Shown: positions 26,239 through 54,525 of the stretch, piece after piece | How positions within the stretch are numbered: the stretch's first letter is position 1 | How the letters are laid out: each line of letters begins with the position of its first letter | Source of the DNA: Linnemannia elongata | Lineage: Eukaryota > Mortierellomycota > Mortierellomycetes > Mortierellales > Mortierellaceae | Length of the DNA: 64,000 bases | Direction: 5' to 3' | NCBI GenBank assembly: GCA_036320915.1 | Contig: JAXBDG010000008.1 | Coordinates: 372,001-436,000, forward strand | The notes under the pieces: model-generated | What the model was told of the DNA's origin: nothing | Databases searched by the model: none | The model's input: the letters and a program-made list of their open reading frames with translations, nothing else | Program-made: the position numbers and the translations under genes

Positions 26239-27317
26239 ATCACCTTCCAGGATCGAGTGCTTCCCATTTAATCTCTCTTTTATTATCACGACCACCTGAT
26301 ACTTATACCACCACGCACCCACAGAGCTCTCTCTCTCTCTCTCGTTCTCGCTTTCTTCTTTTCCGTCCTCACAATACGCTTTATACCCACAAAAAAAAAG
26401 TTGAAAAGAAAGAAAAAAAATAAAATAAAAAAGAACAAAAAAAACTTCACATGTATTTATTTTGTTCATGCATCACAGGTGTTCAACTTGTTGATGTTTC
26501 TCTTCCGTCCATCTCTTATTCATTTTACTGCCAACCACCATAAAAACAACCCAGGTAGCAACCCAAAACGATAAAAGAGATCGGGCTGTACAATTCACTT
26601 GTAACTACGAAGAGATAGGAAGAAGGGTTCAGAAGTGTGCACCACGGGAAATGGTCAGGCTTGGTATGAGTGATTGACGCCAATGGGAGGCGCTGAGGAC
26701 CAATAATACTGCTTTCAACTTTGTTTTTCACGTCCATTCATGGTCATTTCATTATCTTTTCCTTGCATTTGCACCACGATTTCGTGGGGTTTTTAATGGG
26801 TTTTTTTTTCATGCCTTTTATTGCATGAGGCTACCGGAATAATCGTACTCTTAGTCCTCACAAAAGAAATATTAGGAACAAGAATGTGGTTTGGACAGGT
26901 ACATCGTGTTTCCTTCATACACAGAGCCGGGGACCACGGTGAGGACTTTCGAAAGTGGGGAGGTCCTGACATCTGTGAGGTAGAGGACGAGGACGATGGA
27001 GTTATTGCTGTTGCAAGTACAAGCAATACTGGGCGAGAGAGTGAGAATGGCGGAGAGTGTTGCTTGTTGTCGTTAGTGGTGATGCCGGTGGAATGTACGA
27101 AAGAAAGAGGTGAAAGAAGAAAGAGCCTATAACAAGGAACGCCAGGCCAATGCTTTAACGCCCACTCCAGTTTCATCAATTTTCCCGGGAGGGGGGGGGG
27201 GTTCTCTGATAAACAGAACAAAGGAGGCATTTAGAAGTAAAGGGGACTACAGACAAAGCTCTTCAGTGCATCATCCGCTAGTCCCAGTCCGGTCCGGAAC
27301 CTGGCTCTGCGCAACAA
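26239..27317. other. intergenic region
   Basis: 3' region of the Ras-like gene, including a CT dinucleotide run (26325-26343), then unassigned DNA up to the RNase H element. Short frames on both strands near 26800-27230 resemble no family. Confidence 0.4.
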
Positions 27318-27357
27318 TTGCAGCTGCTCTCCACAGCAATAACAGAAGAAAATAGAA

Positions 27358-29568
27358 CTAGATACAAATGAAGGAGATTCTTCCCATCCTCTCCATCAAT
27401 GATAACTTCCTCCTTCCCGACAAACTCTCCAACAGCCGCTCGTCAGCTGCGCGTGGTTCTTTGGTCGCTCCAGGGCATGTCCGATCCTCATGTGTGGCTA
27501 GCGAAGCGCCACACGGGCAGAAACCATCGTGCGTGATGTAACCATATCCTTGACTCCAGTCACCACGAGGACCTGTGTATTTGGATGTCTTGTCCTTCAC
27601 AGAGATGCCCTGGGTCTGCTCCCACTCGATAGTCGCGGAGCATCGGGGTTTCCAGATCCGCTCTGAGGCCTGCGTCTCCAGGTAGCCAACAAATTTGTGG
27701 AGGACCGTCTTGGCGATGGACTGTGGGGTTCTGAAGACCGCGCACCATTCGGTCAACATGCTCTTTGGGGTGATGCCGCGGAGTAGGTCCGATACGTTCC
27801 ACTTGGGGTTCTCATCGCGATCGGGAGCAGGACTACCGCTGTGCACGGCTCGAGCTCCACCGATAGAGGAGAATCCCCGCACATGATCTGCATCTCGGGG
27901 GGGTCGCCAGTGTATGAGTACTGGTCGCGGGGCTTGACGACCGTTATCCACCGCGCGTTGGTGTTCTCGCTTCCTGGCTGCATTGTAGTTGTTTGTCGCC
28001 TGTACACCCCAATCGTCGATCTTGCCCATAGCCTCCTTCCAGATCGTAGTGGTGGTCTCAGCTGCCGAGGAACAGTTCCAGACATGCTCGTTATCCTCCT
28101 TCTTAAGCTCGCATCGTCGGCAAAGGCATGTTGGGTACAGGTTGGGCTTGCGGGCCTGCATGGAGTTCAGGGTGGGCAACATTCCATGCAGCTTTTTGAC
28201 GTGATGTGTCCGTTGATGAGAGTCTTTGCTATTACTGTAAAAGGTGAAGACTGCTCGCCTGTCGTGAACATGAGCCAAGGTCGAGGTCCATTCCACATCG
28301 TCGATGTCAGGGATCGCCCTCTTCACCCGTCTCTGCGACGTCCAGGCCTGGTGGTGTCGGATTGTCGTTTGTTGTTTGAGGAGTTGTCGTAGGTCGATTT
28401 CAACAAGCGCACCATAACAATGTGCAAAGCTCGTGATATCCGCCTGCTGAGTGAGATCCACCTTCAAGGGTACTGTAGCGCTCTGTGCAGCCGCCTTTGC
28501 CGCCTGATCCGCCAGCTCGTTACCTTGGATGTTGCTGTGTCCTTTGATCCAGACAACCTCAACCCCTCCTGGCCGAGATTCCACAACCTGCCATAGTACC
28601 GCCCAAATACCCGCGTATGTGCTCCTGAATCGTTTCCTCGGTAAGGCATCCCGACGATTCTTCACTAGACGTTGGTACTGGTCCACCACCGACTCGTTGT
28701 CTAATTTGACCACAATGTCTTGTTCCGGAGGTGCTGACAAGACTGCGACTAGTAGACCTATGAGCTCTGACTTGGCCGAGGAAGCATGGCCATCCGTTCG
28801 TCCTTGTACTGTCAGGGGGTTCTCCAGAGCGAGATCCACTACTCCAAAAGCCAGTGACACTTCCGATGTTCCTGAATTCAGAAGAGATCCGTCAGAGTAT
28901 ATAGCTCGAGGGGTGGAGTTGTTGACTGGTGTGTCCTGGATCATGCGTATGGACGCCGCCTCTGTTGGGGACAAGCAAAGGGGGCCGATCTGTGTGGTAA
29001 GGGGACTTGCTATCGACGGTGGTTGAACTTGATAGCATTTTTTCAAGGGAAAACTGATACTTGTATCGAAGGCAGGTTTGTATCGTGATGTCGTGTCCTT
29101 GGGGCGGGACCGTATCTCCTTTGGGCGGGACCGTATCTCCTTTAAGCGTGAAACGACCGCTTGATGTTGTTGATGTAGTGCTTCTGTTTTCTGATGCTGT
29201 TGAAGGTTTCTGGTTTGAATGATTTCCTGCAGGCGTGAAACAACCTGGTGATGTTGTTGACGGAGTGATTCTGTTTCCTGCAGTTTCTCAGCTTGAAGGG
29301 ATTCCTGCAGGCGAGAGGTAACTAGATAGTGCTGTTGACGAAGTTGTAGAGCCCTGTCTTGAAGAGATTCCCGCAGACGAGAGTCTTCTGCTTTCCTAAT
29401 CAGTCTGGTCTCCAGGTCTTCGCGAAGTAAGGCGAGGCGACAAAGGCGGTACTCGTTGATGGCCTCGGTGGCCTGGCGACGTATCCCAAGGGCAACGGTT
29501 TTGAGGCGACTTGAGAGAGACTTGATGCGTGCAGCTGCATTGGCAGCCTGAGTATCGAGTGTTGACAT
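27358..29568 (-). CDS. RNase H-domain protein of retroelement
   Basis: From the first ATG (29568) to TAG (27358), 736 aa. The frame is open without an ATG up to 30060, adding a Pro/Ser-rich segment of about 164 codons after a TGA at 30061-30063. In order: a coiled-coil region built of repeats related to LRQQHxxVxSRLQE (about residues 60-150); an RNase H domain with AIYSDGSLL (first Asp), AKSELIGLL (Glu), VKLDNESVV (second Asp) and IKGHSNIQGNELAD (His/Asp), at about residues 220-355; then CLCRRCELKKEDNEHVWNC, a CCHC-like zinc segment typical after RNase H in LINE-type elements; finally a GFCPCGA segment and the tail SLMERMGR. Host function is not suggested; it looks like a mobile-element protein with intact catalytic residues. 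Confidence 0.75.
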   Translation of the reverse strand: MSTLDTQAANAAARIKSLSSRLKTVALGIRRQATEAINEYRLCRLALLREDLETRLIRKAEDSRLRESLQDRALQLRQQHYLVTSRLQESLQAEKLQETESLRQQHHQVVSRLQEIIQTRNLQQHQKTEALHQQHQAVVSRLKEIRSRPKEIRSRPKDTTSRYKPAFDTSISFPLKKCYQVQPPSIASPLTTQIGPLCLSPTEAASIRMIQDTPVNNSTPRAIYSDGSLLNSGTSEVSLAFGVVDLALENPLTVQGRTDGHASSAKSELIGLLVAVLSAPPEQDIVVKLDNESVVDQYQRLVKNRRDALPRKRFRSTYAGIWAVLWQVVESRPGGVEVVWIKGHSNIQGNELADQAAKAAAQSATVPLKVDLTQQADITSFAHCYGALVEIDLRQLLKQQTTIRHHQAWTSQRRVKRAIPDIDDVEWTSTLAHVHDRRAVFTFYSNSKDSHQRTHHVKKLHGMLPTLNSMQARKPNLYPTCLCRRCELKKEDNEHVWNCSSAAETTTTIWKEAMGKIDDWGVQATNNYNAARKREHQRAVDNGRQAPRPVLIHWRPPRDADHVRGFSSIGGARAVHSGSPAPDRDENPKWNVSDLLRGITPKSMLTEWCAVFRTPQSIAKTVLHKFVGYLETQASERIWKPRCSATIEWEQTQGISVKDKTSKYTGPRGDWSQGYGYITHDGFCPCGASLATHEDRTCPGATKEPRAADERLLESLSGRRKLSLMERMGRISFICI

Positions 29569-30115
29569 TGCGATGGCCAAGTTTTGAGGACTCTTGGCAA
29601 GTTGCTTCCGGTAGTACGTTTTGGACGTGGCATACCTTTTGTTCTCGGTCGTTTGTTTTTTCCTGGTCTCATTGGTGATGCGAAGGATCTCAGCATTGTA
29701 TTCTGCCGCCGGACGGAGGAGACGTTTTCTGCAGGTCTCGTCTAGGTTGTCGACTGCTCGCTCAAAGATACGATCGGTTGAGTCGGATGTAAGAGGTGAG
29801 GGAGTGATGGGAGTGTGGGTAAGTGCTGGAGTGTTGGGAGGAGTATCTGTTAGGTAGGGGAAAGGTGAAGGTCGAATCGGTGGGGTAGGAGGTGAGGGAC
29901 TCGAGGCTGGGACGGGAACGAGAACAGGTGAGAGGATTGGCGACGGAGCAAGGCTCGAGACGGGAGCAGGAACAATGTCATGAGAGAAAACCGGAGACGA
30001 TAATGAGGGGGGAGGGGTGGGTGAGAGTGAGGGAAGAGGAGGTTGAGAAGAGGGTGATAGTCAGGGGGTACTAGTCGCCACGGGGCCTCGTGTATTTTTG
30101 CACGCATTTTTAAGA

Positions 30116-30150
30116 CGCCACCAAATACAGCTACTATTAAATTGGTGGCG
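30116..30150. repeat. terminal hairpin of RNase H element, copy 1
   Basis: Inverted arms CGCCACCAA (30116-30124) and TTGGTGGCG (30142-30150) around a 17-nt AT-rich loop. The same structure occurs at 54232-54264. Confidence 0.7.
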
Positions 30151-30182
30151 TGTATTAAGTACTTATAACTCCTAAATTTAAA

Positions 30183-30186
30183 GTCA
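30183..30186. repeat. target-site duplication GTCA, left
   Basis: GTCA directly before the solo LTR and again directly after it (30590-30593). Confidence 0.7.
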
Positions 30187-30589
30187 TGAAAGAATAGGGG
30201 CCTAGGAGTACTGGGGGTGCTCCTTGGGGGTGATCCTCTATTGCTACGTATCAGCGGGGCTGAGTTGTTCCAAGGTGAAAAGGGGGGTTTAATAAGTAAT
30301 GAGTATATACGGTATGCTAGTGAACTAAGGGTAAGGATAGGTCTTGTACCTGAGTTGTTCCAAGGTGAAAAGGAAGGAACCACTCAGGTCAAGGGAAAGA
30401 GGCTAACTTAAGGTAGTGCTATTAAGGGCAGTATATCAAGGGCGCCGAGGGGGGTTCGAGGGAACCATAATAGGTATGCCTACTCGCTTGCCTGCCGGAG
30501 CAGGCAACGAGGGGGCAATCGGCATTCGGGTGCCGATCATGACATCTTGAGAGATGGGCTTAGAGCTTAAATTGCCCCTGTTTAGGACA
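30187..30589 (-). mobile_element. solo LTR of the Ty3-like family
   Basis: 403 bp, same orientation and nearly the same sequence as the two LTRs of the full element at 48208-54195. The one difference seen is a G-run where the others read GGAGG (near 30282-30287). On the minus strand it begins TGTCCTAAAC and ends TTTCA, the usual TG...CA termini. The 4-bp duplication GTCA shows that this is an independent insertion followed by LTR-LTR recombination. It lies 21 bp upstream of tRNA-Arg. Confidence 0.92.
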
Positions 30590-30593
30590 GTCA
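30590..30593. repeat. target-site duplication GTCA, right
   Basis: Right-hand copy of the duplication flanking the solo LTR; 17 bp then separate it from the tRNA. Confidence 0.7.
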
Positions 30594-30610: not shown

Positions 30611-30682
30611 GGTCTGCTGGCCCAATGGAAAGGCGTCTGACTACGAATCAGGAGATTGCAGGTTCGACCCCTGCGTAGATCA
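30611..30682 (+). tRNA. tRNA-Arg(ACG)
   Basis: A 72-nt cloverleaf: acceptor GGTCTGC paired with GTAGATC (two G-U pairs), D arm GCCC/AGGC, anticodon arm TCTGA-CTACGAA-TCAGG with anticodon ACG, variable AGATT, T arm GCAGG-TTCGACC-CCTGC, discriminator A. No intron. A T-rich terminator (CTTTTTTGTTTT) follows near 30705-30720. A solo LTR lies immediately upstream. Confidence 0.93.
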
Positions 30683-34791: not shown

Positions 34792-37700
34792 ATGAGAAAA
34801 AAAATGGATGATCTTGTTGTAATCGACATACCAGAGGAAAGACCAGCAGTGGAACATGGACAAGGTGACACGGTTGAAGACGATGTACTGGTTCTAGGAG
34901 TCCCGTCGCCTACTATCAACCAGAAGGACCAGGATGCAAGGAAGGATGCAATCAACGAAGAAGGAGCAGACAAGGCGTTACTCACCCCTGAGCCACGTAT
35001 GTGTTACCATCACTTCAATTCGCCTGTAATGTACCTCTTTGTGTATCCATGACCTTGCCACTCCAAACTAACCAATGCAATGCTGGGTTGCTGGTTGTAC
35101 AATTGCAATTGCACAATGCTGTTTAGGGTATCGGTCATACTTTGAGGTCCAAGAAGAAGACATGTTGGCGCATGAACTGATACTGCGACCTGTGGAGGAG
35201 TACGTTTCGTTACCCGGGTTGATCGTACCTTTTTTTGAGTGTTCTGATTGACAATCAGTTCGTGTTTCTTGTACTACAATATGACTGGACGGCGTCTAAG
35301 AGTCTCACTAACGGCACCTCTTTCTCCTTTTCATTCCTTCCATCACCAAAACTCTGAATCATCTCTTCGTGATTCATTCATGCAGGACACAACCACCCAT
35401 CGCCTTCAAAGCGACAACCGAATACCTCAAGGTACAAAAAAGGCTTCTTCCATTTTTATTTTTTATTTTTTCTTCTCATTGCACTGTTTTGCAATTGATT
35501 AGTGATTCGCACACAGCTGATTCGTGTACACCATTGACCTTTTTGAACTAAACAGTGGACCATCCCCGCACCGCCGCATGTAAAAAACACCCATTATGAC
35601 ATTGTGTTGGGGATATCGAGCAAGAACATGGACATGGACGCGGTCGAGGCCATAGTCGTTACCATCCACCATAGCCTTCCAGACTCGTTGGCTGTCAAGT
35701 CTGAGGTAAGCAGTAACACGAAAAATACTTTACCTAAACCCCGATAGCGTTAGTTTATCCAGCTGGATCAACTCATGTGTCCAATGCATTGCATCGCCTA
35801 TCCCGCACGCTTTGTTTACTCATATCCGATTGATGGTTTTTTTTTTTACTTTTTGCAATTGTTTTGTTATTTGCCACCATAGGTCATAACGTATCAGGAA
35901 ATCAAGAGGCTATGTTTCTCCGCGGGAAAAGACGATGATGTGTGTTTTCGATGGAAGCTACACGAGAAGTTGGTGCTGCTTGGCGAGGAAGTTGAACCGA
36001 CTCTTCTTGTGATGGATGTCAAGACCTGGCAGGGTGAACCAGATGACTATGGGTCAATTGAACTCCATTACACGGACATCCTCGCCGACTCCAGCGCCTA
36101 CTACAAGGATGGTAAGCAAGCTGTTGATAATTATATCACATATCTCTAAGACCTGCCATACGCGTTTCAACTAATTATTTACCGATTGTATTTGTATAGA
36201 TCCAATGTACAGAGAGCACAAGCCATTCTTCAGTTCAGTCGATGTCAACAGGACGGGACATCCTCAACTTGATATTGAACTACAAGAGCCCAAGACGATT
36301 GCTGGCTACACGATGTCGGGAGACGGATCACACATCTTGATCACGGTCCTTGCAGGAGAACATCGACTACTACAGCTGTGGAACTTCAGGGAGTCACCAC
36401 CGCCAACAGAGATACGGCAATCCAAGCAGGCATCCACTTCCTCACAGCAATCTACTCACTCTGCTGAATCGTCTCCAACCCATACTTTCCAACCGCAGCT
36501 GGTGGCTTGGATGCAGCTGCCGATGGCCGAAGAAAGTACATACGCACTTTGTCTTTCCTGGGATGGCTCACAGTTTGTCTACATCGACTTGGATCGTGTC
36601 GATGCAGGCTCGGAAACGGAGGAGGAACCCGTGAGCGAAAAATCTAGCCGCAAGAATGATACCAGGCCCGCCGAACCCTTAAGCAAGGACGACACGGCCT
36701 TCTACAGGGTGGACTCCGACCACACCCAAGCCCCACCTGGAGCGATTGCTGGCTCAGGATTCAGGAAGTTCGACGTTACGGAGCAGTGTCCTGGACTCGA
36801 TGGTTTCTTTGCCAAAGCCGCCTTTCACATTGTCGCCACTCAGGAGCAGGATGTCAAGGACGAGCTGTTTGTGACATGCGACGGCGTGACAATCGAGATT
36901 TATAGCGCCTTTGGGGACTGGGCTCACCTTCGATCGATCGCAATGGATCGAGCTTGGAACGAGCCAAGGTTTGCCGTCACCGTCTTTGGCGCTCAGCTCA
37001 AGCAGCTCCACGGTGCCTATGTAGTCATTGGAGACCCGGACATGTATGAGGTCTCGACATGGGACATTGAGCAAGGCATCCGCCTCTCGTCTTACATGGA
37101 TCTTACATACGACCAGTTCGAGGCAGTTCGCTTCTCTACGGCCATGTCCAAGGATGGGAGACTGATCGCGATCCCTGGGAAGCACCATGTCGACATCTTT
37201 TGGACCGCAACCTGGACCCGAGCTGCCAGTTACACCGTCCACGATATGAAGCATGACCCTTCGATCGGCTCCGTCCGGTTCATCCGCAATGATACCCAGA
37301 TCATGGTCGACTTCAAGTCCTGCGCGCCGTTCTGTCAAAGAAATCACGGATGTGTCTTCAGTGTCGACAACATGTCTCTGTTGGAACAATACGTCGTCGA
37401 CGGACACGACAACTTCGAGACGTCGTCCGATGACTTGGTCAGCCCGCAAACCATCTGTGTAGGTCTCTCCCAAGTGTCTCTCTTCAACATCGAGGACCGC
37501 ATCTTCCAGTCACCCTCCATCCGGAAGAGACTTTGTCAGGAGTCTTGCTTTGCTTATGATTCCTATATCTATGGCTACGCAGAGACACTCGCACCCACCG
37601 GTCTCACCTTCAAGGCGGAAAAATCGATGGTCCCTGTGCTCATTAATGGCCGCCGGGCAGACCAGCCGTATGTCACCGTGACCGTCTCCGATCAGAACAT

Positions 37701-40700
37701 GATACCTTTCCTAAAGATGCCGATCCCTCTACCCAAGGACCTGGACTTCACCATCCACCGTGTCAACTTCATAGGCAACTGCTCGCACTTGGTCCTGTCG
37801 CTCGATGGCCTGGTGTTGATCTGGAGCACCCCGACAACCCCTGAAGACAAGTTTACTCTTCGCCTGGTCCACACTTACAGCCTCAGGACGGACTGGGAGG
37901 TATGTATTCACGGACAGCTCTATGGACTCCTGCCCTACTACGAGACCGTCGATTTTACCAAGAGTCTCCATGACCCTATCCGTGGTACCGAGGCTGATTT
38001 CCTGGGAGGCGCCGGCTTCCTGTCCGAGATTTTCCAGAGCGCCGGCAAGGACGTTCAAGAGGATATCATACAATACATTGGGAAGTACATCAACCTCTAC
38101 ATCCCAGGAACCGAATGCGACAGCAACATTGTGCAGTATGTTTGCCATCATTGGGTGATTGGGACTCACAGTTCGACCGTCCGACTCTGGAGGGCGCTGC
38201 TTGCTCACCCAACCGGTCGCTGGATCCCAAGGCACGATATGGTCAGGAGCAACAACCCCATTTGGTGCCTCCTTTCCAAGACTTTTGAGCAACCCAAGGC
38301 TTTTGAGCTCGCCGAGGTCTTTATCGATTACTGCATCCGCCAAACCAAATTGGAAAAAGACCCACATTTCCTACTCCCAATTCGGCAATGTATGAAAGAG
38401 CTCACGGATCCCAAGAAGCCCTACTCGGAGGTCACGCTGGAGCTATTCCGAGAACTTGCTTATATACCAGTGCGCGACCGCGACTATATTGTTGATCACC
38501 ACAAGATTGCATACCCATACAAGTTCCATTGGCGGTTCTGGAAGAACAAACCGAGGGGACTCCACCAATATCAGGACCAGGTCTTGCAAGTCACTTCGAC
38601 GCCTACGGCCGACCCTCCCAAATATATCTTCTCGCGTGACATCTACCTAGCCACTTTTGACATGCTCTGGCTCAAGTCTGGCTCCGATCCATCGCGTTCA
38701 GAGGATCCAGAGAAGAGTAGCGAGGGTAAGGGCTTGTATTCATGGCCGTTCGCTTTCAGGGCGTTGCTTCGGCGCCGGTCTTGGTGGACCCCCAATCCCA
38801 CCGTCGAGTGCCATCCTTTTGAGACCGAGACCCTCGACAACCCCGCTATCGCCGCCCTTGTAGAGTACAAATGGTAAGCTTGTTTATTTTTATAACCGCT
38901 GATTTGCCATGGCAAGTTCATTTCGCCGGCCGAGCCCATCCTAACACTATTGTGATTTACATTTAATAGGAACACGATTGGGTTACAGTACTGGCTGCTG
39001 CGCTTCCTGGCGCAATGTGTTTACTATGTGCTTGTCCTCGTTGGCGTCGTCTTTCAGATTAACGGCTACGACAACATGGAAACCCTGAACGCCATCTTCA
39101 TCTCCATCATTGCCATGTCGACCATCTTTGTGTGGCTCGAGCTCTTCCAACTCATCGAAGATAAGAACCGATACTTCCAGTAAGTGTGAAAATGGATGGC
39201 CTTCTTTTTTTGGCCGCAGGTTTTCACTTCCTTTTGAATCGAAGTCTAATCCAACGTACGTTTTTTCAAACGCCGCATTCTCATGCCAGATCCATATACA
39301 ATTTGGTCGACCTACTCGCGTTCGTGTTCCCAATGGCAGGAAGTATCCTGCAACTTGTTCGATCCGATCCCAATATACAGAACTCGCTCTTCAGCTTCTC
39401 CGTCCTCTTCATCTTCTTGCACTTTGTAAGTACCCGTTGCCCTATCTCTTTTGCCATGCCAACCCCGACCGCCAACCAGTCACTAACTAATCATTATACA
39501 TTTCTTGTCGTACCCTATTAGTTGTTTGAGCTGCGAGTGACACGAAGTGTCTGCAAGTTCGTGTCTATCATCATCCATGCCATCGCCTCAATCCGCGTGT
39601 TTTTCTTTGTATTTGCAGGAGGAATCCTTGCCTTTTCCGTGGCGATCATGCACCTCCTTCATACGTGCACCAATTCTGAAGACTGCCCGTCGTACACAAA
39701 TGGCTTCTCACTTGGGTTCTTCCGGGTCATTTCTATGACCTACTTCATGATGGTAAGTGAATGCCTCTTGATATGAAGGCTGCTAGCCTGTTATTCTATT
39801 TTTTTTTAACCGTAGATTGCTGACAGATGATGGTACACACTATCATTTCGATGGCCAATTCATAGGGCGGCATGTATGACCCCGTCAGCAATGGGTTCAG
39901 CAACAACGATGTCGGATTCCATATCATGATGATGGTATTCTTCTTCTTCACCGTCATTCTCATGTTGAACGTCCTCATTGGTAAGCCAGGCAACGTTTTC
40001 TTTTGCTTTTGCTTTTCCATCTCCATCTTTTTTTTTTTTTTTGGTTACTCAGCATTGCTAACTCTTATTTACGCGTATTCTTTTCTTTTTTTTTTGCCCA
40101 GCTTTGATCAACCATGCGATTGACGACGGAGACAGGACCTGGGAACTGGACTGGTTGCATAACCGGATGCGGTATATCGAAAGCGCCGAGAACTTGACCT
40201 ACGACATTCCAGGTACCTGTCCTCCTCCGGTTTCTTTTTTCCTTGCCCTCTCTACCTCTGCCAATTCAGGATCTTGACACTGACAACCCCCAGATTTTCT
40301 AACTCTCTTTTTTTCCACTTTATTTTTTGTCACGATTGATGTAGGCTTCAGAGCAGCACACGACTGTTTCCCAGAAACGATCTACTACACTGCAACGCCC
40401 CTTCAAGTGCGCGAATACAAGAAAAAGACTCAACGCATCTTGGACGACAAAGTAACCTCCGCCGACCTCACCAACGCCGCAGAATTCAAGGTCCAACAAC
40501 CTATTGGGGGAAACATTGGTGGTACCGGTAGTGGTGGTGGGATTCAGGACTGGCAACAACAGCAGTCTCAACAACAGCAACAGCAGCAGGAGAGTGAGAG
40601 TGGTGGTACAGGTGCGGGTGATGCGGCGGTGTTGGCGTTGTTGAAACAGTTCCAGGAGGATCAGAGGCTGGCGAGGGAAGAGCAGCAAAAGGTTTTTGAA

Positions 40701-48118: not shown

Positions 48119-48190
48119 TTCCCAGTCCGGGGATCGAACCCGGGCCTTGTCGGTGAGAGCGACAAATCCTGACCACTGGACCAACTAGGA
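48119..48190 (-). tRNA. tRNA-Glu(CTC)
   Basis: A 72-nt cloverleaf on the minus strand: acceptor TCCTAGT paired with ACTGGGA, anticodon arm TGTCG-CTCTCAC-CGACA with anticodon CTC, T arm with GGTTCGATCC. It is close to the eukaryotic tRNA-Glu consensus (TCAGGATT, GGCCCGGGTTCGA). TTTT follows within about 10 bp of the 3' end as terminator. Its 5' end is 17 bp from the LTR at 48208. Confidence 0.92.
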
Positions 48191-48203
48191 ACTTGCTTGT
48201 TAA

Positions 48204-48207
48204 AAAG
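48204..48207. repeat. target-site duplication AAAG, left
   Basis: AAAG immediately left of the Ty3-like element; matched at 54196-54199. Confidence 0.65.
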
Positions 48208-48609
48208 TGAAAGAATAGGGGCCTAGGAGTACTGGGGGTGCTCCTTGGGGGTGATCCTCTATTGCTACGTATCAGCGGGGCTGAGTTGTTCCAAGGTGAA
48301 AAGGAGGTTTAATAAGTAATGAGTATATACGGTATGCTAGTGAACTAAGGGTAAGGATAGGTCTTGTACCTGAGTTGTTCCAAGGTGAAAAGGAAGGAAC
48401 CACTCAGGTCAAGGGAAAGAGGCTAACTTAAGGTAGTGCTATTAAGGGCAGTATATCAAGGGCGCCGAGGGGGGTTCGAGGGAACCATAATAGGTATGCC
48501 TACTCGCTTGCCTGCCGGAGCAGGCAACGAGGGGGCAATCGGCATTCGGGTGCCGATCATGACATCTTGAGAGATGGGCTTAGAGCTTAAATTGCCCCTG
48601 TTTAGGACA
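48208..48609 (-). repeat. 3' LTR of Ty3-like element
   Basis: 402 bp, TG...CA ends on the minus strand. It contains a 25-bp direct repeat CTGAGTTGTTCCAAGGTGAA... at 48281-48305 and 48370-48394, and two neighbouring hairpins, 48508-48527 (arms TTGCCTGC/GCAGGCAA) and 48538-48557 (arms ATCGGCA/TGCCGAT). The gag-pol frame ends inside it at 48456. Confidence 0.93.
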
Positions 48610-51600
48610 GACTCCCCACGTTGAATCCAAGCCGCCCCTGCGGCTGTCAGCTTTGGATTAGCACGGGCAGGGTGTCGAGCAGGGCGAGATGGGGGAGTTG
48701 AGTGCGCGTGGCTGGCCATGGGAGACGTGACCTGTTGATTTTTCTCTTGGGTATCGAAGTTCTCAACAGGTTCAGACTGTGGTCCTTCCTCGTCTTCTCT
48801 CCTAACTTCCTCCATTGGCACCGTCAGCTCATCCCTGTCGTTCCTGGTCCTGAACCACGCTCTCTTTGGCTCCTCATCTCCTTCCAACACTACCAACTTC
48901 AATCGGTCCTTGTGTACCAGATCGACCTTCACTCTCTCATCCGGCCAGACCAACTTGTAAGCGCCAAAGGGTGTGACCATATCGACTCTCAGGGGACCGT
49001 ACCAAGGGTATTCGAACTTCTGCTTGGATATGTTCTTGACTAACACCCAATCTCCAACCTCGTAGACCTTTCTTGGCGATTCCGGGTCGATGTCGTTTCG
49101 TAGGTTGTACTTCTCGACCATGTCCCGGGCCGCATCCTCCTGGCGTTGCTCCACAGTTAACCGTTCCTGCCGAAGCGCCTCCAGCGTCGCTTCTCTTGCT
49201 GCTTGAACCTCGGAGAACACGGAGTCGTCGAAAATGTAGGGGCGTGTGGCGTCTCCGGGGATTGCTGGCTCGACTCCGTAAAGCAAGTAGAAGGGCGATT
49301 TCTTGGTGACCGAGTGAACGCGGGTCCTGCAGGCGAATACAGCTTGATCCAGAAAGAGGTCCCATTTGTGTCGCATTTTGTTACCAACGTACTTGGTCAG
49401 TGCCCGTCCTAGGATTCCGTTGGTCCTCTCCGTCTTGCCGTTGGTTCGAGGGTGATATGCCGAGGTAAGCCGGTGTTTGGTCTTTAGCTTGTTGAGGTAC
49501 ACACGCAGGACTTCGGACATAAACTGGCTTCCTCGGTCTGATATTAATTCTGCTGGCACCCCGTGGTTCATCACGATCTCTTCATAGATAAAGTCGGCAA
49601 CGGTCTCTGCAGTGGCGTCGGGAGTGGCTTTGGCAATGGTCCAACTGGTGGCGTAGTCGACGGCTACTAGGATCCACTGATTTCCACGCTGGGTCTTGGG
49701 GCATTTTCCAACAAAGTCGATACCCCAGCGTTGAAAAGGCTTGACAATAGAGAGAGTGTGCAGGGGCTCGGTCACGGAGGCACCACCTTGAGTCAACTGG
49801 CACTCCCTGCAGGACCGACAGGCGGATAGGATATCTTTCCTCATGGAAGGCCACCAGAATCTCGGCTGGATCCTGTCAAAGAGACCTTGTCCTCCTGGAT
49901 GTCCGAGACTGGCATGCATCTTGGACATATAGTCAGCGCGGCTTGTATAAGGAAGGTACTCAACGCGGGCTCCATCCATCAGGCGGTACACCTTTCCATC
50001 CTCCACCTCGAATAGATCCTGCTCATTCTGTAGGGTTGCCAACAGTCCTTTATATCGAGGGTTGGAGAGGGTTCCCGTGGTCTTGAACTCAATCATCTTG
50101 AGGGGCCAGTCGAGGTCGTCTAGGGTCTCGTCGAATGTTGCGTCCTCCATGGCCAGCAATAACTCCTCCTCCAGTGTGGATCCTTCGGGGACTGTATCGC
50201 TGCAATCGTCTGACAGGAGCATCAATAGTGGGTCCCTGTCAGCCATGTCGCCATTGGCTATCTCCATAAAGCTACAGGTGATTTCGTCCGCGTTGCCGTT
50301 GGGTCGTGAGAGGGCGTCCGCCACCGGATTGTCGCGTCCTGGTCGGTATGTAATGAGATGGTCCGTTTGTTCCATATAACTGCACCACTTTGCCATGCGA
50401 CGGCTCATCTCCTTCTGACGCTTCAGGAATACTAGGCTGTGGTTGTCGGTTAGGATGTTGGCGGTTCGTCCTTGGATGTAAGTTCTCCACTCCTCACATG
50501 CCACTACGATTGCGTACATTTCCCGTTCATGTGTTGGCCATGCCTGCTGACTCGAATCCAGTTTCCTGGACATGTACGCAACAGGGTGTAACTCCCTCCT
50601 GCCATTAGAGCCGAAGTCCTGACTCAGGACTGCACCGATACCGATTAGGGAGGCGTCCGTCTCAATGAAGAAATCGCGGGTAAAGTCGGCTATGCGCAAG
50701 ACCGGGGCGTTGAGAAGGGCTTCCTTGAGGTCATCGAACGCGGCTTGTTCGACTGCGGTCCAGGGAGTTGGAAGCGGACGTGTCTTTGTAGTGTCGTTGG
50801 TTCCGGAAGACTTTGTAAGCTCGGTAAGGGGGGCAGCGCGCGAGGAGAAATTTTTGATGAACTTGCGGTAATAGCCAGTGATGCCTAAAAACCGTCTGAC
50901 TTCTTGAACGTTGGTAGGAGGCGCTATCGATTGTACTCCTTGCGTCTTGGCCGGGTCCACCTTGATCCCATCAGCACATATGACGTGACCCAGGAAGACA
51001 AGCTCGGGTTGGCCGAATTGACATTTCGACATTTTGGCTTTGAGTTTAAATCTGGCTAACCGTTTCAGGACCCATCGAAGGTGTTGACGGTGTTCTTGTA
51101 CTGTTCGACTGAAAACGAGGATATCGTCCATGAAGACCAGGCAAAAGTTGTCGATGCCGCCTTGGAGGACTTCGTTCATCATGCCTTGGAAGGTTGCCGG
51201 TGCGTTGGTAAGCCCAAAAGGCATGACGAGGTACTCATAGTGTCCGTACCGCGTGCCAAATGCCGTTTTCTCAACATCCTCTGGCTTCATCCTGATCTGG
51301 TTGAATCCTGACTGCAGGTCGAGTTTGGAGAAAATTTTGGCGCCGGACAGACGGTCGAAGAACTCATCGATTAACGGTAACGGGTATTTGTTCTTGATCG
51401 TCACCGAGTTTAGCGCTCGGTAATCCACACAAAGGCGTAGACTTCCATCGCTCTTGCGGACGAACAGGACAGGGGAAGACCAAGGGGAGATACTGGGGCG
51501 GATAAAACCCTTTTTTTCCATTTCGGCCAATTCTTCCCGGAGGGCATCCAGTTCTTGTGGGGACATCCTGCGCACCGGGAGGGCTGTGGGTAATGCTGAT

Positions 51601-53750
51601 CCTGTTTCGATCCGGTGGTCGACGTGGCGATGCGGTGGTAGCTCTTTCAGCTCTGAGAATACAGGTTCCTGGAACTCCCGAATAATGTCGCGATAGTCCT
51701 CGGGAATTGACTTGTCGTCCGGGCCTTTATCTACCACCATCGCATTCAACTCGGCCTTGCCTCCAACCTCGATCGGGAAACAGACACCGTACTCATGCCC
51801 GCTCTGGTTAAGGATACGTTTGAAGTGCTTGTGTCCAACTAAGCGCACATCCACCTTCTCCTCAGGCTTCTCCCCGGGCTCCTCCTCAGGCTTGTCCTCA
51901 ACGTTTTCCTTGCTCGGTTGCGGTGGGGTCATTTCCACATTGTTGGCCGCTATTGCTTGGTCGCGTAGGCTTTGGGCTTGCTGTATTGTCCATCTTCCCT
52001 TCCAACGGTACACACCTGTTTCCCAGTTGACGCTAGGATTCCAGTGCCTTAGCCATGTCTGCCCCAGGATCAGGTCGTAACGCAAGTTGTCAACGATTAT
52101 CCCGGTAACAGATGCATCCTCGGTATCCATTCGCAGGCTTAGCGAGGCGACATCTTTGGCTATGGACACCTGTCCACGAGCGAGGAGGATCTTTACGGGA
52201 GCACTCAGGGGTATCCGTCGGTATTGCAGCTTCCCTAGCTTGGAAAGCAGCTCGCTGCTCACAAAGTTGGCGGATGCACCAGAGTCGATCAGAACGCGTA
52301 GACTCCGGTCGCCAATATAGCCACGAACTTCATGAACTGGACGGTTGAGGCTGTTTACGACTTCGGGATTGTTGTCCTCATCCTTAAGGTGGTACGATTG
52401 CAGCAGGTAGGAGTAAGAAGTGGTCGACTTTTTATTCAAGGGACAGTACTGGTATACGTGGCCGGGCTTCCTACATATGCGACAGCCTCCCTTGACGGCG
52501 GGCTTGGTACAGTCTCGCTTGATGTGACCTTTCTCGAGACAGTTGTGGCAGGTGTAGTCCTCAAAGTGCTTCCGAGTTTCCAGCGCGGCAATCTCCAGTT
52601 CTTCGGCGGTAATGTTGTCAATCTCCATGGCATTATCGTCCTTGGGGGCGGCCTGCTCCGAGGTAGACGAGTGGTACGTGCCAAACGTCCTGTTTCCATG
52701 GTTTCCGCCGCGGTGAGGTCTCCTTCCGTTACGGTTGCCGTCTTGGTACTCGAAAGTCTGAATGGAGGCCTCCTTGGCCACAACCTTGTGAAGGAAGGCG
52801 TCGAGACGGTCGTCTTCGCTATGAAGATCGCTGATGCGGCCCTGGAGCCAAGAGGGCAGCTTACGCGCAAAGTCTAGCTTCTTGTCCTTGTCTGAGCGGT
52901 CGGGGATGCGGTTGGCTAGGGCGAGGTATCGGGCCGCAAAGGAGGCCAGAGCTTCGTTGGGACCGCGTCTCAAAGCCTCGATTTCAGCCCGAAGGTTGGT
53001 TGTCAAGTGGGTGACCCTCCAACGGGCTCGGAACGCAGCCTTGAACGGGGCCCATTCGATGGCCTGTGATGGGGAGAGCGGCTCCAGGTACTGCTCGGCC
53101 CATTGACGCGCACCTGACTTAAGCAGGCCAACGAATGACGAAACCTTCTTGTTTTCAGGACAGCTCTTGTTGATGAAGTGCAGTTCAATGTCCGACAGAT
53201 ACTCATCCAGGTCCAAGGTAAGCTGATTGCCGGTGAAGGACTCGATCCTGGATGGGAACTCGGGCGCGGGGCGGTTGGGATCCTCGAAGCGATCATAGGG
53301 ATGGTGGCCGGATGGATTTATGGTGGAGCGGGAAAACACGTCGGCTGCAGAGCGAGTTGGATGGTTGGATGGTTGTGGATGGATGGATGCAGGGGCGATT
53401 GGAGCGGAGTTTGTGGATTTCTGAACGGCGGCCATCGTTAGCTGGAGTTGTTGTTGTAGCTGTTTGACCAGATCGATTAAAACCGTGTTCTGTTGCTCCT
53501 GAAGCTCTAATCGTTTCTCATATTGCTGGAACACACTCGGGGGGATGGGATTCTGCTGCTGCAGCAGTTGTTCTTGCTGTTGTTGCTGTTGTTGCTGTTG
53601 TTGCTGTTGTTGCTGATGCTGTTGTTGAAGATACGCTTCCTGCTGCTGCAGCTGAGCCAGATGCTCATCGGGTCCGCCGCTGTGGGCCATGAAAAATTCT
53701 TGTTCGTCGTCTTCGTCGGATGTGCCGTCTGCTAATCCGAACCGTACCAT
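48456..53750 (-). CDS. Ty3/gypsy Gag-Pol polyprotein, single frame
   Basis: 1764 aa, ATG 53750 to stop 48456, no frameshift between gag and pol. In order: a poly-Gln tract (about 45-66); gag capsid-like region (FINKSCPENKKVSSFVGLLK ... about 190-320); two CCHC zinc knuckles, CHNCLEKGHIKRDC and CRICRKPGHVYQYC (about 400-433); protease with VLIDSGASANF (about 490); reverse transcriptase with LRLCVDYRALNSVT (about 773) and the catalytic VFMDDILVFS (about 870); RNase H with FIETDASLIGIGAV; integrase with an HHCC zinc site (HASLGHPG ... CRSCREC, about 1280-1320) and the DDE residues in GIDFVGK, LISDRGSQF and HPRTNGKTER. The C-terminus is Pro-rich and lacks a visible chromodomain. The last 51 codons or so lie in the 3' LTR. 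Confidence 0.95.
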   Translation of the reverse strand: MVRFGLADGTSDEDDEQEFFMAHSGGPDEHLAQLQQQEAYLQQQHQQQQQQQQQQQQQQEQLLQQQNPIPPSVFQQYEKRLELQEQQNTVLIDLVKQLQQQLQLTMAAVQKSTNSAPIAPASIHPQPSNHPTRSAADVFSRSTINPSGHHPYDRFEDPNRPAPEFPSRIESFTGNQLTLDLDEYLSDIELHFINKSCPENKKVSSFVGLLKSGARQWAEQYLEPLSPSQAIEWAPFKAAFRARWRVTHLTTNLRAEIEALRRGPNEALASFAARYLALANRIPDRSDKDKKLDFARKLPSWLQGRISDLHSEDDRLDAFLHKVVAKEASIQTFEYQDGNRNGRRPHRGGNHGNRTFGTYHSSTSEQAAPKDDNAMEIDNITAEELEIAALETRKHFEDYTCHNCLEKGHIKRDCTKPAVKGGCRICRKPGHVYQYCPLNKKSTTSYSYLLQSYHLKDEDNNPEVVNSLNRPVHEVRGYIGDRSLRVLIDSGASANFVSSELLSKLGKLQYRRIPLSAPVKILLARGQVSIAKDVASLSLRMDTEDASVTGIIVDNLRYDLILGQTWLRHWNPSVNWETGVYRWKGRWTIQQAQSLRDQAIAANNVEMTPPQPSKENVEDKPEEEPGEKPEEKVDVRLVGHKHFKRILNQSGHEYGVCFPIEVGGKAELNAMVVDKGPDDKSIPEDYRDIIREFQEPVFSELKELPPHRHVDHRIETGSALPTALPVRRMSPQELDALREELAEMEKKGFIRPSISPWSSPVLFVRKSDGSLRLCVDYRALNSVTIKNKYPLPLIDEFFDRLSGAKIFSKLDLQSGFNQIRMKPEDVEKTAFGTRYGHYEYLVMPFGLTNAPATFQGMMNEVLQGGIDNFCLVFMDDILVFSRTVQEHRQHLRWVLKRLARFKLKAKMSKCQFGQPELVFLGHVICADGIKVDPAKTQGVQSIAPPTNVQEVRRFLGITGYYRKFIKNFSSRAAPLTELTKSSGTNDTTKTRPLPTPWTAVEQAAFDDLKEALLNAPVLRIADFTRDFFIETDASLIGIGAVLSQDFGSNGRRELHPVAYMSRKLDSSQQAWPTHEREMYAIVVACEEWRTYIQGRTANILTDNHSLVFLKRQKEMSRRMAKWCSYMEQTDHLITYRPGRDNPVADALSRPNGNADEITCSFMEIANGDMADRDPLLMLLSDDCSDTVPEGSTLEEELLLAMEDATFDETLDDLDWPLKMIEFKTTGTLSNPRYKGLLATLQNEQDLFEVEDGKVYRLMDGARVEYLPYTSRADYMSKMHASLGHPGGQGLFDRIQPRFWWPSMRKDILSACRSCRECQLTQGGASVTEPLHTLSIVKPFQRWGIDFVGKCPKTQRGNQWILVAVDYATSWTIAKATPDATAETVADFIYEEIVMNHGVPAELISDRGSQFMSEVLRVYLNKLKTKHRLTSAYHPRTNGKTERTNGILGRALTKYVGNKMRHKWDLFLDQAVFACRTRVHSVTKKSPFYLLYGVEPAIPGDATRPYIFDDSVFSEVQAAREATLEALRQERLTVEQRQEDAARDMVEKYNLRNDIDPESPRKVYEVGDWVLVKNISKQKFEYPWYGPLRVDMVTPFGAYKLVWPDERVKVDLVHKDRLKLVVLEGDEEPKRAWFRTRNDRDELTVPMEEVRREDEEGPQSEPVENFDTQEKNQQVTSPMASHAHSTPPSRPARHPARANPKLTAAGAAWIQRGESVLNRGNLSSKPISQDVMIGTRMPIAPSLPAPAGKRVGIPIMVPSNPPRRP
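48610..48619 (-). other. polypurine tract of Ty3-like element
   Basis: GTGGGGAGTC directly upstream of the 3' LTR on the minus strand, the expected position of the plus-strand primer. Short and imperfect. Confidence 0.45.
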
Positions 53751-53780
53751 ATACGTGTGGGCTCGTTTAAGATCGTTAGA

Positions 53781-53792
53781 CCTTTGCTACCA
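53781..53792 (-). other. primer-binding site, initiator tRNA-Met type
   Basis: TGGTAGCAAAGG on the minus strand, one base inside the 5' LTR. It resembles the complement of the 3' end of initiator tRNA-Met (TGGTAGC...), as in Ty3. Confidence 0.65.
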
Positions 53793-53793
53793 T

Positions 53794-54195
53794 TGAAAGA
53801 ATAGGGGCCTAGGAGTACTGGGGGTGCTCCTTGGGGGTGATCCTCTATTGCTACGTATCAGCGGGGCTGAGTTGTTCCAAGGTGAAAAGGAGGTTTAATA
53901 AGTAATGAGTATATACGGTATGCTAGTGAACTAAGGGTAAGGATAGGTCTTGTACCTGAGTTGTTCCAAGGTGAAAAGGAAGGAACCACTCAGGTCAAGG
54001 GAAAGAGGCTAACTTAAGGTAGTGCTATTAAGGGCAGTATATCAAGGGCGCCGAGGGGGGTTCGAGGGAACCATAATAGGTATGCCTACTCGCTTGCCTG
54101 CCGGAGCAGGCAACGAGGGGGCAATCGGCATTCGGGTGCCGATCATGACATCTTGAGAGATGGGCTTAGAGCTTAAATTGCCCCTGTTTAGGACA
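53794..54195 (-). repeat. 5' LTR of Ty3-like element
   Basis: 402 bp, read as identical to 48208-48609. It should hold the promoter of the element. Confidence 0.93.
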
Positions 54196-54199
54196 AAAG
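54196..54199. repeat. target-site duplication AAAG, right
   Basis: Right-hand copy of the duplication of the Ty3-like element. Confidence 0.65.
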
Positions 54200-54231
54200 C
54201 TATAAAAAATATCTAATATCAACTCAGCTTA

Positions 54232-54264
54232 CGCCACCAAATTATTCTACTCAAGGTTGGTGGC
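54232..54264. repeat. terminal hairpin of RNase H element, copy 2
   Basis: Same arms as 30116-30150, with a different 16-nt loop. Confidence 0.7.
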
Positions 54265-54525
54265 AAAATTTTGAAAATGAAAAAAAAAATGCCCGCCAAA
54301 AAAAAAAAAAAAGAATCGCGTAGGAGCAGGCTACACCCGATAGCCACACATGAGGATCGGACATGCCCTGGAGCGACCAAGGAACCACGCGCAGCTGACG
54401 AACGGCTGTTGAAGTGTTTGTTGGGAAGGGGAGAGTTATCATTGATGGAGAGGATGGGAAGAACCCCCTTTATTTGTATCTAGTTTTAATTTTCTTCCAT
54501 TTTTTTTTGCTGTGAAGAGCAACGA
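54232..54525 (+). mobile_element. internally deleted copy of the RNase H element
   Basis: Starts with the hairpin CGCCACCAA (54232-54240) / TTGGTGGC (54257-54264). A poly-A-rich join follows, then the last 45 or so codons of the element's protein (THEDRTCPGATKEPRAADER ... SLMERMGR) and about 40 bp of its 3' region. An in-frame ATG at 54271 gives a 70-codon fusion frame ending at 54483, probably without function. Its 3' end stops almost at the stop codon of the channel copy B (54533), so it marks one edge of the inverted duplication. Confidence 0.75.

Follow-up and report, generated by a model that had tools for sequence, protein, structure and literature searches.

The DNA analysed here, hereafter the window, is a stretch of 64,000 nucleotides (positions 372001-436000 of contig C31) of a fungal genome, and carries an intact long terminal repeat (LTR) retrotransposon inserted immediately upstream of a tRNA gene. 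The genome surveyed below is the window's own (51.1 Mb, 32 contigs), and a protein encoded at 36205-38877 (+) has its best named match in Linnemannia elongata (94%), with other Mortierellaceae ranking lower, so that the host is likely a Linnemannia and thus outside the ascomycete yeasts. The element occupies 48208-54195 on the minus strand (5988 bp) and is bounded by a 3′ LTR at 48208-48609 (−) and a 5′ LTR at 53794-54195 (−), recognised by their mutual identity over 402 of 402 bases. Its target gene, tRNA-Glu(CTC), lies at 48119-48190 (−) according to Infernal (RF00005, 58.2 bits), with ARAGORN drawing it one base longer at each end, and 17 bp (48191-48207) separate the LTR from the mature 5′ end at 48190. 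The sequence AAAG is present on both sides of the element, at 48204-48207 next to the tRNA gene and at 54196-54199 on the distal side, as a target-site duplication. An earlier note on this DNA had described the intact element, its AAAG flanks and its distance from tRNA-Glu, all of which were confirmed from the sequence and with Infernal.

A single open frame of 1764 aa, running from 53750 to 48456 on the minus strand and terminating within the 3′ LTR, encodes the gag-pol polyprotein. Pfam domains were located to gag (aa 206-290), a CCHC motif (400-416), protease (approximately 475-573), reverse transcriptase (RT; 764-924), RNase H (997-1127) and integrase, the latter with an H2C2 region (1268-1320) and a core (1337-1434). 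This protease-RT-RNase H-integrase order, along with two LTRs with TG...CA ends, a target duplication and a primer site, identifies the element as a member of the Metaviridae, and the description of it as a fungal Metaviridae element without a visible chromodomain holds. The primer-binding site, TGGTAGCAAAGG at 53781-53792 (−), starts one base past the 5′ LTR and consists of 12 nt complementary to the 3′ end of tRNA-Met plus CCA; judging from its tRNA sequence, this primer is likely the initiator. A candidate polypurine tract, GTGGGGAGTC, whose function is presumed from its sequence, adjoins the 3′ LTR at 48610-48619 (−). One copy of the element elsewhere in the genome (C4:1498k, locus L010) adjoins a tRNA-Met gene whose 3′ end fits the element's own primer site.

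A solo LTR of the same family, reported in the earlier note near 30.2 kb, is real; it lies at 30187-30589 (−) between copies of GTCA (30183-30186 and 30590-30593), 21 bp upstream of tRNA-Arg(ACG) (30611-30682, +; Infernal). The note had proposed plotting the distance of all LTR copies from tRNA genes, and the whole-genome search run for this purpose returned at least 19 pieces at at least 11 loci, both lower bounds. Eight of the 11 loci have an LTR terminus 9-21 bp before a mature tRNA 5′ end, inside the zone of approximately 25 bp upstream that marks Ty3-type targeting: tRNA-Tyr at 9 bp, Lys at 12, Pro at 14, Glu in the window at 17, Glu on C11 at 18, Gly at 19, Met at 20 and Arg at 21. These tRNA ends were set with ARAGORN and afterwards with Infernal, which shifted the 5′ end by one base in three of the eight. 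Seven tRNA isotypes are represented, and the insertions comprise four full-length elements, each with an identical LTR pair, two whole solo LTRs and two solo LTRs split by a later insertion. Six of the eight point away from the tRNA gene (divergent) and two towards it (same orientation), and all eight are flanked by perfect 4-bp duplications when TG...CA ends are assumed, no two of them alike. Two tRNA-Lys genes flank the element at C31:1847-1853k, and CCCG occurs once in the unfilled leader and twice at the filled site. The remaining three loci are decayed pieces, and the outcome that the note had named as fatal to targeting, with most copies far from tRNA or other RNA polymerase III (Pol III) genes, was not observed.

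Such a distribution is very unlikely to arise by chance. The comparison used 301 tRNA-like anchors, made up of covariance-model or ARAGORN tRNAs and B-box words, a list that is incomplete and contains many chance matches. The first B-box pattern, of which the first 100 places were used, matched 272 times against 220 in a reversed control, and the last pattern matched less often than its control (19 against 51). Scoring covered 63 of 1419 tRNA candidates, 61 of 72 Metaviridae RT/integrase candidates and 83 of 333 LINE (long interspersed nuclear element) candidates. With these anchors, the probability of landing 25 bp or less upstream is 1.5e-4 per insertion, and that of at least eight in 11 is about 4e-29, or 9e-27 if 600 anchors are allowed. 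The other Metaviridae of the genome, hand-merged from the remaining scored candidates into 24 clusters, show no association with tRNA genes; three have an anchor within 300 bp and one further has an anchor within 9 kb (4/24). The three near anchors proved to be one word resembling a B box, found 94 bp beyond the integrase match in three copies of a single element family with near-identical RTs, and were rejected as tRNA genes. Targeting of tRNA genes by this LTR family is well supported.

The two split solo LTRs, on C11 and C14, are interrupted by insertions that end in poly(A); related sequence is present twice in the window. The larger copy, a 5′-truncated LINE at 27201-30070 (−) with an RNase H frame at 27358-29580, points away from tRNA-Arg, and its 5′ end is placed only to between about 29880 and 30130. 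The smaller, a fragment at 54338-54521 (+), points away from tRNA-Glu and would lie approximately 155 bp upstream of it after subtraction of the LTR element and one duplication copy. Duplications and exact 5′ ends were sought for both window copies and not found. A copy of 9998 bp with a poly(A) tail starts 88 bp from a tRNA-Lys gene on C1 and encodes an ORF2 (second open reading frame) protein of 2461 aa with an EEP endonuclease (29-265), RT (647-924) and RNase H (1944-2084). The EEP-family endonuclease, RT, poly(A) end, variable 5′ truncation and target duplication together mark these insertions as a LINE; PF14529 was rejected as its endonuclease family, with two matches below the cut-off, and PF03372 fits instead. 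The first 1150 residues of ORF2 gave nine protein matches, most without an organism name and none naming a dictyostelid; four are metagenomic at 38-44% and the rest, including one from Geosiphon pyriformis, are at 22-26%.

The association of this LINE clade with tRNA genes was assessed in 28 loci with 30 tRNAs (L001-L008 and L058-L077), chosen before the LINE was recognised; these tRNAs are the top 31 of the 63 by score, minus one already used. A LINE copy was found within 1150 bp upstream of 19 of the 30 tRNAs with one query and of 22 with two, with the nearest LINE base 88-224 bp upstream; loci with copies in the tRNA leader include L061 and L084. All 22 are divergent from the tRNA, the 5′ side of the LINE being the nearer to the gene, and because L065 and L066 are mutual duplicates one of the 22 is not independent. 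Downstream matches occurred at two of the 30 tRNAs, both being the upstream copy of a neighbouring tandem tRNA. Duplications of 10-15 bp flank nine insertions (six of the 22, the full-length copy and those on C11 and C14), the others among the 22 having no clear repeat or a 3′ end beyond the sequence compared. Measured from the tRNA-side edge of the duplication, the distance to the tRNA is approximately 77-94 bp in three full-length-type insertions and approximately 121-156 bp in six window-type insertions. Across the genome, 27 of 51 LINE clusters lie upstream of and divergent from one of the 301 anchors within 3 kb (the anchor being a covariance-model or ARAGORN tRNA for 11 and a B-box word for 16), with none in the other three arrangements; within 9 kb the figures are 29 upstream-divergent and one otherwise. 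A related LINE clade of 17 copies, whose RNase H and C-terminal region shares 39-42% identity with this one, is an internal negative control, with anchors near 0/17 copies within 3 kb and 2/17 within 9 kb.

In the RT tree, the LTR element groups with Entomortierella and Mucorales proteins and not beside Ty3. This tree was built from 33 of 120 listed relatives and 12 of 30 own-genome loci, with L035 (stops) and P0037 (short) dropped, and the approximately unbiased (AU) test additionally left out five long own-genome rows and P0045; the integrase alignment used 53 of the 120 relatives. Placement inside the Ty3 clade is marginally disfavoured; a joint clade with Ty3, itself a long branch, is not rejected (p-AU 0.0598, 39 rows). 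This position in the tree qualifies the label "Ty3-like" used in the earlier note. The integrase core and C-terminal domain (CTD) align with 7q5b, and the 50 chains listed in that comparison include no chromodomain, which carries no weight as evidence. No match to the chromodomain PF00385 was found with Pfam at E up to 1 in the element or in proteins P0001, P0005 and P0022, and the chromodomain at the integrase end that defines chromoviruses is absent by this search.

We consider it highly probable that the window holds an intact Metaviridae element whose family inserts 9-21 bp upstream of tRNA genes, as at eight of its 11 loci, through a predicted integrase steered by TFIIIB, and that the LINE is targeted separately. 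The integrase would be the targeting protein and, by analogy with Ty3, would dock on the Pol III initiation factor TFIIIB (TBP/Brf1) near the transcription start, and the 9-21 bp spread likely reflects the differing start sites of the tRNA genes. The LINE clade likely reached tRNA leaders by a separate route; its ORF1 or ORF2 protein may tether it to the Pol III complex or to an adjacent chromatin edge, and its endonuclease would then open target-primed reverse transcription at a site set by that complex or edge.

Several observations weigh against this reading. The claim of LTR targeting rests on eight insertions, and three of the 11 loci, all degraded, have no tRNA within 1.5 kb and, according to Infernal, no RNA gene at the site: a copy 21 kb into contig C2 that is 91% identical and lacks 29 bases at its beginning; LTR fragments at C4:1070-1072k; and a 74% fragment on C27. 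The C4 fragments adjoin LINE copies that may have displaced that locus, and those on C2 and C27 have no explanation. None of the seven genomic 5S rRNA matches (six above the cut-off) lies near an LTR copy, so that insertion at 5S genes was rejected and a general preference for Pol III genes is unsupported. For the other Metaviridae, the control took its distances from RT/integrase matches that lie several kb within the elements, and the tRNA list behind it is incomplete. The vestigial chromodomain that follows the CTD in Ty3 is the part contacting TFIIIB and the tRNA gene; such a domain was not seen in two structure models of this integrase, in which the tail is of low confidence. For the LINE, no copy accompanies eight of the 30 tRNAs; at two of the 22 the nearest match spans just 27 bp (L007) and 34 bp (L006), longer ones following at greater distance; and for 24 of the 51 clusters the list of tRNA-like anchors has no entry within 3 kb. 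The size of the LTR duplication is also affected, as seven of the eight can be read as 5 bp, the following base being T like the terminal base of the LTR. Only at the C4 copy beside tRNA-Met (AAAC with a T before it) can the two lengths be told apart, and there 4 bp fits and 5 bp does not; in the other seven, a preference for T and a 5-bp duplication are indistinguishable by sequence. The 4-bp duplication claimed in the earlier note thus stands in all eight insertions with TG...CA ends, and the 5-bp duplication of the Ty3 type was rejected on the C4 copy only.

The same pattern might be produced by selection, with insertion at random and persistence of those copies that do little harm upstream of tRNA genes, which are seen as potentially safe places to integrate when a genome is compact (PMC5006619). 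This appears improbable, as the identical LTR pairs of the four full-length copies leave little time for sorting, the insertion zone is just 13 bp wide, LINE orientation is uniform in 22 of 22 cases, and the 24 other Metaviridae clusters and 17 related-LINE copies of the same genome are not at tRNA genes. Still less probable is recognition by the integrase of a DNA motif frequent in tRNA leaders in place of a protein complex; the T that follows the 4-bp duplication in seven of the eight insertions suggests a mild sequence preference, however the eight duplications have no common sequence and the distance to the tRNA 5′ end is the feature they share. Copies could also have spread through duplication of blocks containing both tRNA gene and element, and some tRNA-Lys loci are indeed inverted duplicates (L065/L066). 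The eight LTR insertions, however, stand at seven isotypes with eight different duplications and varied distance and orientation, and the LINE copies differ in truncation points and duplications, on which grounds dispersal by segmental duplication was rejected as extremely improbable.

Set beside known elements, the TFIIIB-steered Metaviridae reading finds a close counterpart in Ty3 of Saccharomyces cerevisiae, which also belongs to the Metaviridae, has an alignable integrase core and CTD, and is listed with insertions 1-4 bp ahead of the site where tRNA transcription starts (PMC5911963, Table 1). The present element differs in its 4-bp duplication, compared with 5 bp in Ty3 (PMC8632968), in its RT, which falls outside the neighbourhood of Ty3, and in having no modelled equivalent of Ty3's vestigial chromodomain. 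Other Ty3-like elements upstream of tRNA genes, namely Tj1 of Schizosaccharomyces japonicus, Tyl3, Ylt1 and Tyl6 of Yarrowia and Tca8 beta of Candida (PMC5911963, Table 1; PMC4600332), all have ascomycete yeasts as hosts. Tj1 is described with a 5-bp duplication and a single orientation relative to the gene (PMC4600332), unlike the 6:2 division between divergent and same orientation seen here. The suggestion of a tRNA-targeting lineage outside yeasts agrees with the 94% protein match to L. elongata, but such a lineage is not the first, since DGLT-A of Dictyostelium is an earlier-known tRNA-targeting Ty3-like element (PMC5006619); DGLT-A, compared here by description and not by sequence, has an amoebozoan host.

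The tabulated cases of tRNA-adjacent LTR elements come from Saccharomyces, Candida, Yarrowia, Schizosaccharomyces and Dictyostelium, and those of non-LTR elements from dictyostelids only (PMC5911963, Table 1), within which at least six independent gains of tRNA targeting have been described (PMC5006619). Like TRE5 and NLTR-B of dictyostelids, the Linnemannia LINE is a non-LTR element upstream of tRNA genes; NLTR-B is described with an RNase H after the RT (PMC5006619), and in vitro the ORF1 protein of Dictyostelium TRE5-A contacts TBP (PMC5391098). TRE5 and NLTR-B are listed at 39-64 bp upstream (PMC5911963, Table 1), whereas the LINE described here lies at approximately 77-156 bp (duplication edge), in a fungal host, and has an ORF2 of 2461 aa. 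It resembles those elements in idea, and what is new is the fungal host, the other spacing and the single orientation. No report of tRNA-targeting elements in Mortierellaceae, or of a tRNA-targeting fungal LINE, was found in listings of the openly licensed literature.

The LTR element adds a Ty3-like tRNA targeter, characterised by a 4-bp duplication and the lack of a visible chromodomain, from a region of the fungal tree that is new for elements of this kind. It is probable, in our view, that in this one early-diverging fungus two unrelated lineages independently occupy tRNA genes and share the leader, the LTR family taking −9 to −21 and a LINE of fixed orientation, which inserts through earlier LTR copies, taking approximately −77 to −156. 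The LINE would be the first tRNA-targeting one of a fungus, with two subfamilies reading approximately 77-94 and 121-156 bp. Occupation of tRNA leaders by both an LTR and a LINE lineage in a fungal phylum other than that of the yeasts would add one more, separate host lineage to those with this double solution, and it offers two elements whose distances from a single complex differ. In such a system it becomes testable whether the Pol III initiation complex serves generally as a docking site and whether a Ty3-type chromodomain is needed for this.

The tRNA leaders also contain recurrent sequence motifs. In 15 of the 30 leaders CACGTG is present between −58 and −106; it is absent from all 30 downstream flanks and appears once in the 64-kb window. 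It sits between the LTR and most LINE positions and may be an upstream element of tRNA genes. The word TTAGAGAA and its close variants, picked by eye from these same leaders, occur on either strand at −64 to −116 in 10 of the 30 and in none of the downstream flanks. Upstream of the tRNA-Arg and tRNA-Glu targets in the window, an inverted repeat, ACGCCACCAA...TTGGTGGC, is found at 30115-30151 and 54231-54264, at a similar distance from both tRNAs after removal of the LTR insertions. Of the 30 other leaders, one (L061) contains TTGGTGGC, a word that is present nine times in the window.

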